Of a stretch of 20,218 nt of DNA, positions 2,968 through 16,907 are shown piece by piece. Position 1 is the stretch's first letter. Each line of letters begins with the position of its first letter. Source of the stretch: a virus. Below the pieces are notes generated by a model. It did not search any database and was not told the origin of the DNA. It saw only the letters and a program-made list of their open reading frames with translations. Position numbers and translations under genes: made by a program. The stretch lies in the IMG/VR virus record IMGVR_UViG_3300023440_000036, positions 1 to 20,218 of that record; one strand, written 5' to 3'.

Positions 2968-2990
2968 TTAACCGGTTAACCGGTTAACCG
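2968..2990 (+). repeat. Palindromic 8-bp tandem repeat abutting a promoter
   Basis: The unit TTAACCGG is present 2.9 times (2968-2975, 2976-2983, 2984-2990). Because TTAACCGG tiled head to tail is self-complementary, it forms overlapping inverted repeats. It ends exactly where the -35 element begins (2991), the position of an activator or operator site. Confidence 0.8.
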
Positions 2991-3019
2991 TTTACTTTCC
3001 GATAAGAATAGTATATAAT
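2991..3019 (+). promoter_or_regulatory. T4-type early promoter
   Basis: TTTACT (2991-2996, within TTTACTTT) and TATAAT (3014-3019) are separated by 17 nt. The downstream leader AACGTTAATAAACGCACTA is almost identical to that of the promoter at 3370, so the two units look duplicated. Confidence 0.85.
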
Positions 3020-3052
3020 TAACGTTAATAAACGCACTAAGAGTCTAAAACA

Positions 3053-3350
3053 ATGAAAGTAATATTGATGACCAAACTGCAACTGAACAAAACTGAACAA
3101 AACTGAACAAAACTGAACAAAACTGAACAAAACTGAACAGCTCATAAACGCTTTGGATGAATTTCAAATTGAGTTTGTGGAATCAGATAGTGAAATTACA
3201 GTTCAAAAAGACCAAACTACTCATTTAGTAGCTGATGCTGGTAGGGTTAAAAATTTAATAGAACAACTCAGAATGAACGATTTGTTCGACTTGAACGTCA
3301 TGGTAGACACAGGAACTAAAGAAATGGAATTTATAATCGACGAAATTTGA
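3053..3350 (+). pseudogene. Small ORF disrupted by an expanded 10-bp repeat
   Basis: Starting at ATG 3053, behind AAGAG and a good promoter, translation gives MKVILMTKLQLNKTEQN and stops at TGA 3104-3106 inside a 10-bp tandem array. Past the array the frame continues LNKTEQLINALDEFQIEFVE and on to TGA 3348-3350. Removing four of the six array copies (40 nt) joins both parts into one open frame of about 85 aa: the two copies left encode LNKTEQ only once. The joined product is acidic and helical; I do not recognise it. As it stands only a short peptide, or an internal start such as TTG 3153, could be made. It may be a dead gene, or one whose reading depends on copy number. Confidence 0.65.
3081..3139 (+). 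repeat. 10-bp tandem repeat, 5.9 copies, inside a gene start
   Basis: AACTGAACAA is repeated perfectly at 3081, 3091, 3101, 3111 and 3121, with a nine-base partial copy at 3131-3139. Since 10 is not a multiple of 3, each unit gained or lost changes the frame. Any three consecutive copies also place a TGA in frame. Confidence 0.95.
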
Positions 3351-3369
3351 AGAAAACGGAAATTTACTG

Positions 3370-3398
3370 TTTACTTTCTGATAAAAAATGTATATAAT
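3370..3398 (+). promoter_or_regulatory. T4-type early promoter
   Basis: TTTACT (3370-3375) and TATAAT (3393-3398) have a 17-nt spacer and drive the 54-aa gene at 3433. The leader is a near copy of that at 3020-3044. Confidence 0.85.
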
Positions 3399-3432
3399 CA
3401 ACGTTAATAAACACACTATGGGACGTATAAAA

Positions 3433-3597
3433 ATGAGCTCAATCGATAATTTAGACGAAATTACAAAAGCCACTATGCTGGTGGACATTTTGATTGAAAT
3501 TGAAGAACTTTGTGAACTGCGCAAAGATTCAAGCAATGAAGCAGTTCTTGAAGAAATTGAAGAACTATGCGACCGGGCTTTTAACATCGTTCGCTAA
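3433..3597 (+). CDS. Small acidic helical protein, unknown
   Basis: This encodes 54 aa, starting MSSIDNLDEITKATM. ATG 3433 is preferred to the in-frame ATG 3418, because GGGA at 3420-3423 is 9 nt upstream and alignment with the duplicated leader at 3053 puts the start here. The protein is rich in Glu and contains two similar helices, IEIEELCEL and LEEIEELCDRA. It has no membrane segment and no recognised domain. It has its own early promoter, typical of small host-takeover genes, but no function can be assigned. Confidence 0.65.
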   Translation: MSSIDNLDEITKATMLVDILIEIEELCELRKDSSNEAVLEEIEELCDRAFNIVR

Positions 3598-3632
3598 AAA
3601 AAAGTTGGAACGAGAATCATGAGATATACGAA

Positions 3633-4028
3633 GTGAAAAACGTGCAAGAAACTAAACGAAAAGTTACAGCTTAAGAGTTAAGAGATATAGTATTGTGCGG
3701 TTGCACTCAAGAAGAAATAGACTCATTGGATTTGTCTGAAATCACCGACTGTTCTGGACTATTCCGTTGTTGTCTGTTTTTGAAAGAAGTCCCTGATTTA
3801 AACCTGCCTAATGTTACGTGTACATTTAGTATGTTTTACGGATGTGAGAATTTAACTTCGGTTGGTGTTTTAAACTTAACTGGCTGTAAGACTTTTAACA
3901 GTGTGTTTGAGAATTGTACATCTTTAGAGTTTATAAAAACACTAATTTTACCGCAAAAATTAAGCGCATCCAGTCTGTTCAAAGACGCAAAAATGTTATC
4001 AGATACACGTCCGGAGTTATTCATTTGA
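3633..4028 (+). pseudogene. DUF285/BspA-type leucine-rich repeat protein with in-frame stop
   Basis: The segment LDLSEITDCSGLF...LNLPNVTCTFSMFYGCENL shows repeated 'aromatic/Ser-x-hydrophobic-F-x-x-C-x-x-L' units, typical of DUF285/BspA-like leucine-rich repeats (about three units at 3720-3960). Upstream in the same frame is VKNVQETKRKVTA, then TAA at 3672-3674, then ELRDIVLCGCTQEEIDSL. The coding pattern crosses the TAA, so it reads as a nonsense mutation of a sense codon such as AAA, GAA or CAA. GTG 3633 or the out-of-frame ATG 3619 may mark the old start. A shortened protein from TTG 3693 (111 aa, TGA at 4026-4028) remains possible but has no good ribosome-binding site. Such proteins are common accessory genes in phages and gut/marine bacteria; the role is unknown. 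Confidence 0.55.
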
Positions 4029-4086: not shown

Positions 4087-5067
4087 ATGAAACTAAAAAC
4101 ACTAACTCAGTTCATCGAAGAATCCATAGCCGTTCATGGATTAAAATATAACTACTCAGAAGCGGTTTACACATGTTCACGTGTTAAACTAACTATAATT
4201 TGTTCATGACATGGACAATTTAGTCAAACACCATCTAGTCACATAAATAATAAATATGGATGTCCTAGATGTTATAGTGGCGCTAGGAAAACGTTAACTG
4301 AGTTCATCCAAGATGCTCAAGTCATTCACGGAACTAAATACGACTACTCAGAAGTGGTTTACTTATGCAACAACGTTAAACTAATTATAACCTGTCCAGA
4401 ACACGGTCCTTTTGAACAAACACCATCTAGTCACATAAATATGGATGCCCAAGCTGTGGACACCTTAAAAAGGGAAATAAAAGCTCAACTGGCGAGTTCA
4501 TCCGAAAAGCTCATAGAATACACGGAACTAAATACGCTTATTCCAAAGTTGAATATATAAACACACACACACACACACACTAAAGTTAAAATTACATGCC
4601 AAGCACATGGGGTTTTTGAACAATGTACGACTAATCATTTAACAGGTCGTGGGTGTCCTAAGTGTTCTAAGAAAATCAACGACTGTAATTATGTAAATAG
4701 GTACGCGTTAAATGAAGAATTGGGTTCAAAACTTGGTATATTTTACGTAGTTGAGTTTACACACAAATGTTCTAGCGGTTACAACGAGTTTAGTTTTATA
4801 AAAGTCGGAATTACTTCAAAAACTGTCAAAGAACGTTACGCTAGTAGCAAACATGGTGGTAAAAACGATGATAAATTAAGTTACAAGGTCCACCTAGATT
4901 TGAAAATGAGCAACATTTCAACGGCTTTGTTAGAAATGGCTTTTTTCAAAGAACACAAACCAGATTTCATATTCCCAGAAGGGTTCAAATTCGGTGGTAA
5001 AACAGAATGCTACAAAAAAGAAAATTTCAAATTCAACAGGCTGGAAGGCTTAGAATGTTTAAAATAA
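4087..5067 (+). pseudogene. Broken homing-endonuclease-like gene: DUF723-type zinc-ribbon repeats plus GIY-YIG domain
   Basis: Three tandem units of the pattern 'F-I-x-x-A-x-x-x-H-G-x-K-Y-x-Y-S ... V-K-x-x-I-x-C-P-x-H-G' followed by G-C-P-x-C are visible at about 4114-4275, 4300-4460 and 4508-4665. A C-terminal domain follows (FYVVEF ... FIKVGITSKTVKERY ... LLEMAFFKEHKPDF), resembling the GIY-YIG/T5orf172 nuclease fold. Three lesions break it. TGA at 4207-4209 replaces the residue before HG in unit 1. A 7-nt loss near 4440, relative to unit 1 (ATAAATAATAAAT against ATAAAT), shifts frame. An (AC)10 run at 4561-4580 shifts it back. The longest intact part, 4720-5067 (115 aa), covers the nuclease domain. 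Genes of this type are mobile and often insert beside replication genes. It is probably inactive. Confidence 0.75.
4561..4580 (+). repeat. (AC)10 dinucleotide repeat inside the endonuclease pseudogene
   Basis: Ten perfect AC units lie where the protein frame should read YIN-TKVKITC. Their length makes upstream and downstream reading frames disagree, giving a stop at 4581-4583. Confidence 0.95.
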
Positions 5068-7436: not shown

Positions 7437-7469
7437 TTTACTTTTGTTCATTTTAAGCAAACTGATAAA
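7437..7469 (+). promoter_or_regulatory. Early-promoter -35 with its -10 region replaced by a repeat
   Basis: GTTTACTTTTGTTCATTTTA at 7436-7455 matches the 5' half of the early promoters, but no TATAAT follows at 17 nt. Instead an 8-bp repeat begins at 7459, each unit offering GATAAA (first at 7464-7469, 4/6 to TATAAT, spacer 21 nt). It would be the promoter of the sliding-clamp gene, with reduced or altered strength. Confidence 0.5.
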
Positions 7470-7497
7470 CTGATAAACTGATAAACTGATAAACTGA
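7459..7497 (+). repeat. 8-bp tandem repeat, 4.9 copies, over the clamp promoter
   Basis: AAACTGAT is repeated perfectly at 7459, 7467, 7475 and 7483, with AAACTGA at 7491-7497. It lies exactly where the -10 element and start site of the clamp promoter are expected. Confidence 0.95.
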
Positions 7498-9891: not shown

Positions 9892-10848
9892 ATGACAGAT
9901 TTTAACACGGTACAAGGTGCAGATGCGTTTAACTTTTCAGCTATGAAAGCTGAGATTGGAAAGGACCCGTTTGCAACCCACAAAACTAGTTACTCCCGTG
10001 ACGAACGATTTTACATGTTGCAGAAAGATAAAGAAGGCAACGGAGCTGCCTTGATTCGGTTTTTGCCAGATTCAGAGCGTGGTATGTTACAACGGATGTT
10101 TAAAATTGGCACTACGGTTATTAAAAATGGTAAGAAACGGTTTGTGTCTGAATTTTCACCATCTACTATTAACCAACCTGATCCTTTTCAAGAAAAATGG
10201 CAAGATTTGTGGAATAGCGGAGAAAAAGAGACCGCTAAGATTTTTTCGCGAGGTGTTCGTTTTGTTAGTAATATTAAAATTCTAAAAGACCCATCCAATC
10301 CAGAAAACGAAGGTAAGATTTTCTTATATGAAATGTCTGGTTCTATGAAGGATAAATTACAAGCTGCGATTGACCCAAGCGAGCAAGATCGTTCGTTAGG
10401 GGCTAAACCTAAGGAGTTGTTCAACCCGCTGCAAGGTAATTCTTTCCGCCTAGTTGCTAAGATTGGTGCTAATAAACAAATCAACTACGATTCTTCTGAA
10501 GTTTTAAACGATATTTCTTCAATTTACAACTCGGTTGATGAAGCGCTAACGGATATTAAAGAAAACACCCACAAGCTGAGCGGTTTGATAAAACCCGAAT
10601 CTTTCATGACTTACGAAGAACTTAAGAAGAAGATGGCTTGGGTTACTTTCGAAGACGCGCAAACTCAACTGTTAACAGCCCAAGTTTCAGAACCCGTTCA
10701 AGCTGTTCAAGCTGTTCAAGCTGTTCAAGAAGTTCAAGCTGTTCACGAAGTTCAAGAAGTTCAAGCTGTTCAAGAACCTGCTAAACCAACCAAAGAAGAA
10801 TCTAATAATGATGTTTCTTTAGATTCTCTATTGTCTGGTTTAGTTTAA
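9892..10848 (+). CDS. 32: Single-stranded DNA-binding protein (T4 gp32-like)
   Basis: This encodes 318 aa (T4 gp32 is 301), from ATG 9892 with AAGGAAG at 9877-9883. GNGAALIRFLPD (res. 49-60) matches gp32 GNGQAVIRFLP, and ILKDPSNPENEGKIF (130-144) matches VVKDPAAPENEGKVF, both in the OB-fold core. The zinc-binding Cys/His cluster of T4 gp32 is missing; the stretch STINQPDPFQEKWQDLWNSG fills that place. A repetitive linker of nine three-residue VQA/VQE-type units (res. 269-295) precedes the acidic C-terminus ESNNDVSLDSLLSGLV, the part that recruits partner replication proteins in T4. It coats ssDNA during replication and recombination. RNase H and primase follow downstream. Expression is likely early and late, with a terminator right after. 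Confidence 0.9.
   Translation: MTDFNTVQGADAFNFSAMKAEIGKDPFATHKTSYSRDERFYMLQKDKEGNGAALIRFLPDSERGMLQRMFKIGTTVIKNGKKRFVSEFSPSTINQPDPFQEKWQDLWNSGEKETAKIFSRGVRFVSNIKILKDPSNPENEGKIFLYEMSGSMKDKLQAAIDPSEQDRSLGAKPKELFNPLQGNSFRLVAKIGANKQINYDSSEVLNDISSIYNSVDEALTDIKENTHKLSGLIKPESFMTYEELKKKMAWVTFEDAQTQLLTAQVSEPVQAVQAVQAVQEVQAVHEVQEVQAVQEPAKPTKEESNNDVSLDSLLSGLV
10696..10776 (+). repeat. 9-bp in-frame tandem repeat, 9 units, in the gp32 linker
   Basis: Nine units of GTTCAAGCT/GTTCAAGAA type (one GTTCACGAA) encode VQA VQA VQA VQE VQA VHE VQE VQA VQE. The unit length is a multiple of 3, so the gene stays open. Confidence 0.95.
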
Positions 10849-12356: not shown

Positions 12357-13466
12357 ATGGGATTAGTTTCGGTAGATGTTAAGTATTTCAAGATGGCCGT
12401 TGGTTTGGAACGAATTGGTAGGGAGACTACCGAAGATGTCCAAGCCAAGTGTCCAGTTTGTGGAGATTCTAAAACTAAAACAAGTGCCAAACGTTTGCAT
12501 TTGTACAATAAAGGAACTGTAACCAACGTCAATTGTTTCAACGGCGACTGTCCAGTTCACAACAAAACAGTTTATGGGTTCTTGAACGAGTTTTTCCCAA
12601 ATTTAATAAGTCAATATAAACGAGAAACTTTCCAAAACACGCTAACTGAGCTTTCAAACGGCGGAGATGTGTTTGCATCTTTTAAAAAAACTACAAAAAC
12701 TACAAAAACTACAAAAACTACAAAAACTACAAAAACTACAAATAAACACGAAACGGAACCCACGTCTGAACCAAAAGATAGTTTATTGGATAGTTGGGAA
12801 CCTAATGATGTATTTTTACAGATACCTAAGCCACCAGTTCAAGTTCAAGATTTAACCATGTACATGCAACCGATCGAAGAATCTAAAACTGGGATGGATT
12901 ATTTACTAAACCGAGGAATTGAACCAAATACAAACTTCGGAAAGTGGTTCTTCGGAGATAGAGATTTGAAAATAGGGGAAACTTTGTATAGAATAACCGA
13001 TTCTGTAGTAGTTCCTTTGTATTATAAAGACGTGATGTATGGTTTTTACTCAAGAAGTACAGAAACTAAAAACTTCACAACTTACATGAACCACACGAAC
13101 ATCGGGTATAAAATTTTCAACTGGTTCAACGTCGATTTAGAAGAGCCTGTTTATATTTTCGAAGGAGTTTTTGACGCGATTGCTTCAGGGTTGTCGAACT
13201 CGATAGCTTTATTAGGAGCTAAACTTCCAGATGAAAGACTCAAAGAAATCAAAAAACCTATATTCTGCTTAGATAACGATAGGACTGGAATCATCAACTC
13301 TATACAGTATGCTAAAAAAGGACATAGCATATTTATACAACCGAAACAATTCAAAGAAAAAGACATGAATGAATTGATGTTGAATTATGGTTCTGTTTGT
13401 GGTTTGGTTAAGAATAATATAAAATGTGGAATTATAGCTGAGGTTGAACTAACATCTAGGTTGTGA
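12357..13466 (+). CDS. 61: DNA primase, DnaG/T4 gp61 type
   Basis: This encodes 369 aa from ATG 12357, with AAAGAG upstream. The N-terminal zinc-binding site is C32-x2-C35 ... C60-x4-C65-x2-H68 (CPVCGDSKTK; NCFNGDCPVH). A low-complexity linker of six KTT units follows (res. 111-128). The C-terminal half has the Toprim acids: Glu269 in VYIFEGVFDAIASG and Asp306-x-Asp308 in FCLDNDRTG. It synthesises the RNA primers of the lagging strand. It lies 48 nt after the RNase H gene, so primer maker and primer remover are probably co-transcribed. T4 gp61 is 342 aa, so the length is normal apart from the repeat. No gp41 helicase is adjacent. Confidence 0.9.
   Translation: MGLVSVDVKYFKMAVGLERIGRETTEDVQAKCPVCGDSKTKTSAKRLHLYNKGTVTNVNCFNGDCPVHNKTVYGFLNEFFPNLISQYKRETFQNTLTELSNGGDVFASFKKTTKTTKTTKTTKTTKTTNKHETEPTSEPKDSLLDSWEPNDVFLQIPKPPVQVQDLTMYMQPIEESKTGMDYLLNRGIEPNTNFGKWFFGDRDLKIGETLYRITDSVVVPLYYKDVMYGFYSRSTETKNFTTYMNHTNIGYKIFNWFNVDLEEPVYIFEGVFDAIASGLSNSIALLGAKLPDERLKEIKKPIFCLDNDRTGIINSIQYAKKGHSIFIQPKQFKEKDMNELMLNYGSVCGLVKNNIKCGIIAEVELTSRL
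12687..12740 (+). repeat. 9-bp in-frame tandem repeat, 6 copies, in the primase linker
   Basis: AAAACTACA is repeated six times, perfectly, encoding (KTT)6. It lies between the zinc domain and the catalytic core, where length change is tolerated. Confidence 0.95.
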
Positions 13467-13530: not shown

Positions 13531-13683
13531 ATGTTGAACAAACCGTTTGTATTCAAGTGTAGAAAAACATTAGTTATGAAAACTAGAGATTTATATCATA
13601 ACCGTCCGATTAATTCTATGATGTGGTTGATTGGGACTGATAGTTTAAGTGAAATTATATCAAAAATGAGTAAAAATGAGTAA
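13531..13683 (+). CDS. Small basic protein, unknown
   Basis: This encodes 50 aa from ATG 13531 with AGGAG 6 nt upstream: MLNKPFVFKCRKTLVMKTRD and on to the stop at 13681-13683. The N-terminal part is strongly basic; no membrane helix or domain is recognised. Its last codons (MSKNE-stop) are made by a 10-bp repeat that continues into the next gene's start. The C-terminus may therefore have been altered by repeat growth. It has its own early promoter. Confidence 0.65.
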   Translation: MLNKPFVFKCRKTLVMKTRDLYHNRPINSMMWLIGTDSLSEIISKMSKNE

Positions 13684-13690
13684 AAATGAA
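13662..13690 (+). repeat. 10-bp tandem repeat across a gene junction
   Basis: AAAAATGAGT is present at 13662-13671 and 13672-13681, with AAAAATGA at 13682-13689 that carries the ATG of the next ORF. The repeat supplies the end of one gene and the start of the other. Confidence 0.85.
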
Positions 13691-15951: not shown

Positions 15952-16848
15952 ATGGTTAAAATTTTAGAAAACACAGTAGGACCTGCTGACATTAACATAG
16001 CTACTACTGACGAAAACTTGACGGTTGAACAGATGTTTCAGCAAGTTAAGTTACCTTCTTTAGGACGTGAGATTTTCTCAGTTCAACAAATGCACGGACC
16101 CACAGCCGCTTTGTTCAACATTAGAAACAGAGTTGCTCAACCCGGTAACCCAATAACTTTAACAAACGCTAACGATTTTCAATTAATTAGAAGTGAAGTC
16201 GCTTGTTTCCCAAGTGTAGCTATTTCAACCGGAATCACTCAAGAGATGACTCAGGATTTGAAATCCCAGTACGGAATGGAAGCTAATAAAATAATCGGTT
16301 CTTTGTTGAGAGGTTTGGCAAACGATGATGAAAATGCAAACACGTTGGCTTTTTTAAATGCTAATTCTTTAAACGGTCCTAGTTTAACATTATCTCCAAC
16401 AGTTAGAGCTAATGCAGAATTGACTTTGTTCACGGTGACTCAACGTGTTCAGGAGTTAGTTTTGAAAATGAACTCTTTGCATTTGGTAACGTTTGACGCA
16501 TTTGCAGTTTTGCCGGCGAGAGAATTGGCTGGGGTTATGGCTTTAGCTAATTACGCCCAAGGTGAAGTTCGAGAAAGCAATTCTAGTCTTTACGTAGCTA
16601 AAATTGGTAAAACTAAGTTTTACTTAAATCCAGACCCTTTGAGTACAACAGCTTATGTGGGTCTATTAGACCCTTTGAATATGAGCAAATCAAGCGCTGT
16701 TTTCTCACCTTATGAAGAAACTGTAGTTAACGGAGTTAATCCAGACACGGGTGCCGAACATTACCACATTTACAACCGTTACGCAATCGCAGTATCTCCT
16801 CTTCATAGACTAAACGAAGAATTGCTACATATGTTTAATATAGTATAA
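15952..16848 (+). CDS. Small gp23-family (HK97-fold) capsid protein
   Basis: This encodes 298 aa. ATG 15952 has CGAGGAAA upstream; ATG 15922 has no ribosome-binding site. Similarity to T4 gp23 runs along the chain. The N-arm LGREIFSVQQMHGPTAALFN resembles gp23 IFDICGVQPMNSPTGQVFALR. ITQEMTQDLKSQYGMEANKI resembles the gp23 SIELAQDLRAVHGMDADAEL region. KTKFYLNPDPLSTTAYVGLL ... AVFSPYEE and YNRYAIAVSPL resemble the end of the P domain (YYAPYV ... FKTRYGI). It is far shorter than gp23 (521 aa) or gp24 (427 aa). It lacks the long N-terminal scaffold-cleaved arm and the insertion domain. It may be the true major capsid protein of a distant lineage, or a paralogue. The single late promoter supports abundant late expression. 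Its stop codon lies in an 11-bp repeat. Confidence 0.78.
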   Translation: MVKILENTVGPADINIATTDENLTVEQMFQQVKLPSLGREIFSVQQMHGPTAALFNIRNRVAQPGNPITLTNANDFQLIRSEVACFPSVAISTGITQEMTQDLKSQYGMEANKIIGSLLRGLANDDENANTLAFLNANSLNGPSLTLSPTVRANAELTLFTVTQRVQELVLKMNSLHLVTFDAFAVLPARELAGVMALANYAQGEVRESNSSLYVAKIGKTKFYLNPDPLSTTAYVGLLDPLNMSKSSAVFSPYEETVVNGVNPDTGAEHYHIYNRYAIAVSPLHRLNEELLHMFNIV

Positions 16849-16907
16849 AAACAGTATAAAAACAGTATAAAAACAGTATAAAAACAGTATAAAAACAGGA
16901 TTAAAAC
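16842..16907 (+). repeat. 11-bp tandem repeat, 5 perfect plus 1 decayed copy
   Basis: AGTATAAAAAC is repeated at 16842, 16853, 16864, 16875 and 16886. The sixth, AGGATTAAAAC (16897-16907), carries the AGGA ribosome-binding site of the next gene. The first copy contains the capsid stop codon TAA (16846-16848). Each unit holds TATAAAAA, one base from the late box TATAAATA. Confidence 0.95.

Follow-up and report, generated by a model that had tools for sequence, protein, structure and literature searches.

Frame breaks driven by slippage are already known. In the Streisinger model, slipped strands give rise to tandem duplication and frameshift. In the usual SSR frame switch, the unit can be read through, and gain or loss of a single unit rotates open and closed frames. 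Phase variation is defined in PMC11868660 by high-rate, reversible switching at a single locus; the bacterial SSR contingency loci described there carry the tract near the 5' coding end, their copy number sets the frame, and their lengths vary among genomes. In T4 gene 60, the other described system of relevance here, ribosome bypass of a non-coding gap depends on one stem-loop at the take-off site, on another on the 5' side and on contacts made by a 46-aa nascent peptide, according to PMC11194080. Our search of the open-access literature found no report of a phage gene that varies in phase through a tandem array. Here, we report a perfect 10-bp tandem array that splits a small early gene of a T4-related phage, and we compare this locus with the systems above, with its intact homologue in a sister contig and with the other tandem arrays of the same genome.

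The contig and its relatives

The window, i.e., the whole stretch of DNA that was analyzed, is an entire IMG/VR record of 20,218 bp in which no tRNA was found. It codes for a T4-like replication block comprising a sliding clamp, a gp32-type SSB, an RNase H-type exonuclease (assigned from gene position and from the annotation of the syntenic Va1 gene), a primase, a ParM/actin-like protein, a gp23-type capsid and a large helicase, and it is part of a T4-related (T4-like) phage genome. The capsid is 54% identical to that of Vibrio phage Va1, 53% to that of phiKT1024 and 27% to that of Campylobacter phage CP220; Va1 and phiKT1024 also share with the window the order of MreB/ParM-like protein, clamp, SSB, RNase H, primase, capsid and a large gene of helicase size. 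These three relatives resemble the window's phage in having capsid homologues, but they are without the 85-aa gene described below, unlike the sister contig with its intact copy. Megablast against 50,697 phage records found nothing that matches the window, and a scan of genome contigs with the capsid alignment found nothing either. The sole IMG/VR contig found with the locus is L005 (IMGVR_UViG_3300023442_000027; records very near the window were excluded from the searches), hereafter the sister. Its DNA is 0.835 identical to the window over 15,092 aligned columns, i.e., the two are about 16% apart.

A 10-bp array splits a small early gene

The array at 3081–3139 (plus strand) consists of 5.9 perfect copies of AACTGAACAA (TRF, 100% match) and is 40 bp, i.e., four units, longer than the same site in the sister, which holds an imperfect pair only (AACTGAATAA AACTGAACAG) and no array. 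In the alignment of window and sister, there is one 40-bp gap within the array and none elsewhere in the gene. Arrays of this class were absent from 100 Markov-1 resamples of the window, the expectation of 49 consecutive period-10 matches is ~1e-22 at the window's base composition, and a chance origin is excluded.

It had been proposed from the window alone that this repeat splits a small gene, that six copies end the protein after 17 aa and that two copies would give about 85 aa, and the comparison with the sister bears this out at the exact position of the array. Translation from the ATG at 3053 yields a 5' fragment (3053–3106, plus strand) of 17 codons, MKVILMTKLQLNKTEQN, and then hits TGA (3104–3106) within unit three of the repeat; this fragment and the sister protein agree in all of their first 16 residues. 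The 3' fragment (3117–3350, plus strand) is shifted by +1 from the frame of 3053, has no stop between the TGA at 3114–3116 and the one at 3348–3350 and is 93% identical to sister residues 13–85. In the sister, the gene is an intact 85-codon ORF (L005:791–1048) with two units, the natural case of the two-copy form. It has the same promoter block and begins at the equivalent of 3053, not of 3153; a homologue starting at the latter position, which would have meant that no gene is split, was thus not found. The 3' fragment of the window has no good start of its own, the TTG at 3153 being without a ribosome-binding site.

A T4-type early (sigma-70-like) promoter of the split gene, GTTTACTTT-N-TATAAT, is predicted by motif match at 2990–3019 (plus strand), its block ending 33 nt before the ATG, and a putative ribosome-binding site, AAGAG (AGGAG in the sister), is read from the sequence at 3039–3043 (plus strand), 9 nt 5' of the ATG. 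We take the promoter class to be T4 early on the basis of the T4 matches and the consensus. The TATNAT form stands before the same gene in the sister, and the initial 50 kb of T4 contain three matches to it; the scanned stretches of Va1, phiKT1024 and pv27 gave no match to this pattern. The pattern GTTTACTTTN{13,16}TANAAT has seven matches in the window versus 0 expected (100 shuffles). Plus-strand motifs of the type GTTTACTTT-N-TANAAT are located at 2990, 3369, 6590, 7112, 9683, 13474 and 13799.

Over the 73 codons of the 3' part, we counted nine synonymous versus six nonsynonymous changes, which gives a dN/dS of 0.135 for the window–sister pair (binomial P = 5e-4 against the site-count expectation, transition bias ignored); this value is pairwise, from two sequences only, and not assignable to one branch, and it fits a recent break. 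It could also mean continued expression. Of 17 window genes entered into the same comparison, 16 had a match; their values range from 0.05 to 0.39 except for a short ORF at 2.1. The split gene is considered real because of its promoter, its ribosome-binding site and its low dN/dS. A real gene is split here, and, as far as the two sequences tell, the split is probably recent.

With E values up to 10 allowed, tblastn of the 85-aa sister protein found nothing in the 50,697 phage records; the protein also has no PHROG match and no match to surface or host-range proteins in the libraries searched. A Pfam match to YLR146W-A (17.2 bits versus a cut-off of 27) was rejected as chance, and the AlphaFold model of the protein has a mean pLDDT of 52.8, too weak for a fold search. 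Antisense ORFs across the array were also rejected, since the clear genes of the stretch are all on the plus strand.

Stop codons in the array and the proposed ribosome bypass

An array of AACTGAACAA meets TGA in all three frames within three copies, and the frame entering from 3053 is always closed by the TGA in the third unit. With a TGA in every frame, arrays of at least three units are therefore closed, and only the two-unit form was seen open. A plain +1 frameshift as a way through was rejected: frame 0 is closed at 3104, and a TGA at 3114 closes frame +1.

If the protein were still made, ribosomes would have to hop from AAC-TGA at 3101–3106 to a later matching codon, e.g., the AAC at 3126, as in T4 gene 60. 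The split gene resembles gene 60, as the latter is portrayed in PMC11194080, in its two reading segments, its non-coding gap, the stop after a possible take-off codon and its setting in a T4-related phage; identical codons do lie downstream, and the pairwise comparison shows purifying selection on the 3' part. However, any repeat supplies such take-off and landing matches automatically, and the gap consists of repeats that are absent from the homologue. Gene 60 has a take-off stem-loop with supporting 5' and 3' stem-loops, whereas no stem-loop was found over the array, which is unpaired in the centroid fold of the RNA; the stretch 3020–3180 folds with z = +0.70, and 150 of 200 shuffled sequences have an equally good or better fold. 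The nascent peptide would be very short, 17 aa without KKYK, versus the 46 aa of gene 60 with its KKYK motif and tunnel contacts. Bypass, which the original prediction had entertained as a more speculative alternative, is disfavored by the missing structure and the short leader peptide, and we regard it as extremely unlikely.

Tandem arrays elsewhere in the genome

The array at 3081–3139 is not isolated but one among seven perfect 8–11 bp arrays in the window, the six others being at 1405–1441, 7459–7497, 10696–10729, 12686–12742, 13662–13689 and 16842–16898. Under a fixed definition of an array (period 5–20, at least 25 bp and at least 2.5 perfect copies), there are seven in the window (20.2 kb), three in the sister (23.75 kb) and seven in the 29 control loci, which amount to 511,357 bp once redundancy is removed (eight in the raw 660,608 bp; 27 of the 29 loci, counted earlier, had seven in 560,608 bp). 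Briefly, the control set is made up of L007–L018, L020–L034, L038 and L039, from which stretches at least 95% identical were removed for the non-redundant count, and the array counts omit L001–L004 (pieces of the window) as well as L019 and L035–L037 (pieces of the sister). The seven arrays of the window compare with 0.28 expected (P = 2e-8), and the six with at least 3.5 copies compare with 0.08 expected; please note that some control phages are distant relatives and that the genome regions covered partly differ. Va1, phiKT1024 and CP220 have 0.2–0.6 perfect arrays per 10 kb versus 3.5 in the window. An array density ~25 times that of the relatives, together with several multi-unit gains since the split from the sister, points to a measurable quirk of replication or repair; the genes for the phage's DNA polymerase and repair proteins are located outside this contig.

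Every window array with an alignable counterpart in the sister has another length there. The window is longer by 36 bp at 12686 (9-bp unit, in frame within the primase), by 45 bp at 16842 (11-bp unit, just past the capsid stop) and by 9 bp at 13662 (at the end of a small ORF); the array at 10696 is in frame and diverged from the sister, and those at 1405 and 7459 have no clear orthologous stretch there. The sister, in turn, is longer by one extra unit at L006:6464, and its 13-bp array at L006:7853 is missing from the window. At L006:3899–3930 in the sister, an 8-bp array (ACAGTCCA x4) occupies the last codons of a 618-aa ORF, i.e., a frame-changing array is tolerated at a gene end.

The arrays in gene interiors of the two phages are 10696 (9 bp), 12686 (9 bp) and 3081 (10 bp), and the other seven arrays, with periods of 8, 10, 11 or 13, lie between genes or at their ends. 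The period is divisible by three in two of the three interior arrays versus none of the seven elsewhere (Fisher two-sided P = 0.067, by hand classification), a pattern that, apart from 3081, agrees with selection against frame-breaking arrays, in counts too small for significance.

The position of several arrays directly before or after genes (1405–1441, 7459–7497 and 16842–16898) would suit a DNA- or RNA-level element, such as a protein-binding site, an origin or a recombination hot spot, in which case the damage to the gene at 3081 would be incidental. But the unit differs in each array, and the sister is without expanded arrays at the alignable orthologous sites, and we consider such an element very unlikely.

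Neighboring genes

The small early gene that follows the split gene (3369–3597, plus strand, with a promoter block of the same kind; the gene itself at 3388–3597) is intact in both window and sister. Behind it, a BspA/DUF285-like gene (3624–4028, plus strand) is broken in the window, with ATA versus ATG of the sister at the first codon and an in-frame TAA at 3672–3674 versus CAA of the sister. The homologue of an intact 458-aa sister gene (4087–5067, plus strand) is also broken in the window, with TGA at 4207–4209, TAA at 4558–4560 and a stretch in another frame at 4434–4556; the TAA at 4558–4560 adjoins an (AC)10 run, and the 458-aa sister protein contains repeats. In the accessory stretch at 3.05–5.07 kb, the window has therefore lost the integrity of three out of four genes that the sister has whole; besides the split gene, these are two of the next three accessory genes downstream, with lesions unrelated to the array. 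No internal stop was found in the window orthologues of ParM, gp32, RNase H, primase, nuclease, gp23 and the 898-aa helicase. Taken together, the setting resembles recent repeat-driven gene loss, in an unusually repeat-rich virus, more than a proven on/off switch.

The three largest expansions (3081–3139, 12686–12742 and 16842–16898) have each gained about four units and are nearly equal in perfect length (57–59 bp), for which a common cause is possible, as is an assembler limit on repeat length. The array could be an assembly or sequencing artefact of a metagenomic contig, and the lesions clustered at 3.6–5.1 kb could be errors as well. Yet the long core genes are intact, the nonsense change at 3672–3674 is a substitution rather than an indel, and assemblers normally shorten repeats and do not invent them. 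We judge an artefact to be distinctly improbable.

Probable gene loss and the proposed phase variation

We consider it probable that slippage has expanded short arrays across this lineage and that, at 3081, the outcome is a loss-of-function allele of a dispensable early gene. Slipped-strand mispairing while the phage DNA was replicated is the most likely way in which a pre-existing two-copy 10-bp repeat would have grown to six and would thereby have knocked out the small early gene. With one close relative in the searched collections, the direction and timing of the expansion are unpolarized; we infer growth from two copies to six, the slippage itself, the dispensability of the gene and the recency of its loss. 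Since expansions of the same kind occur elsewhere in the genome, the cause is probably a lineage-wide tendency to amplify 8–13 bp tandem units. Selection would then clear frame-breaking arrays from important genes, and they would be tolerated in intergenic DNA, at gene ends and in dispensable genes. The account builds on the intact two-unit homologue, the additional 40 bp, the truncation, the excess of arrays, the other expansions and the other broken accessory genes. As in a pseudogene, there is an intact orthologue with conserved start and promoter (L005:791–1048), and the neighborhood is decaying, with two further downstream accessory genes broken. The 3081 array is like the Streisinger case in that an existing direct repeat would expand to perfect copies without selection for switching; the difference is that the effect in the window is genome-wide, with multi-unit gains at several loci.

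The same array could instead be a selected contingency element, in which the early gene is ON with two units and OFF with three or more, and slippage between these states switches it within the phage population. This was the leading idea of the original prediction, and the part in which array length gates the frame holds, as the sister differs in copy number. A perfect, potentially hypermutable tract within the ORF differs by four units from the homologue; the only two known relatives are one ON and one OFF; the 3' part of the gene is conserved; the array sits close to the gene's 5' end, with the gene's own promoter immediately before it; and arrays of this lineage clearly vary in length. The likeness to bacterial SSR contingency loci, as PMC11868660 presents them, thus extends to the tract near the 5' coding end, the frame-setting copy number and lengths that vary among genomes. 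Unlike those loci, the unit at 3081 is longer (10 bp), there is no rotation of frames, and the locus belongs to an orphan early gene of a phage, with no match to a surface or host-range protein. Because TGA is present in every frame of the unit, a return to ON needs an exact loss of four units, not a one-unit step. The sister has no array to slip, only its imperfect pair, and nonsense changes, together with lesions of other kinds, disrupt neighboring genes. The on/off part of the idea is unsupported, with two alleles only, in diverged phages, and we hold selected switching at this locus to be unlikely. A broader version, in which elevated amplification of tandem units makes arrays hypermutable genome-wide and early accessory genes toggle between two-unit ON and multi-unit OFF states as phage contingency loci through slippage-prone replication, appears rather unlikely to us.

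If the arrays vary within the population, they would be contingency loci encoded by a phage, of which few cases exist; if they do not, the gene-loss reading would make them a clear, dated example of repeat expansion pruning accessory genes in T4-related phages.

Two minor features lie immediately 5' of the gene in the two contigs. Directly 5' of the split gene's promoter, the window carries a palindromic TTAACCGG repeat (2968–2989), terminator-like on both strands. Just 5' of the intact sister gene, L005:604–794 holds a partial second copy of the gene's 3' end; window 3297–3436 and L005:655–794 match at 76%, with a weak protein match (E = 0.005), and this partial copy suggests a past duplication of the small gene.
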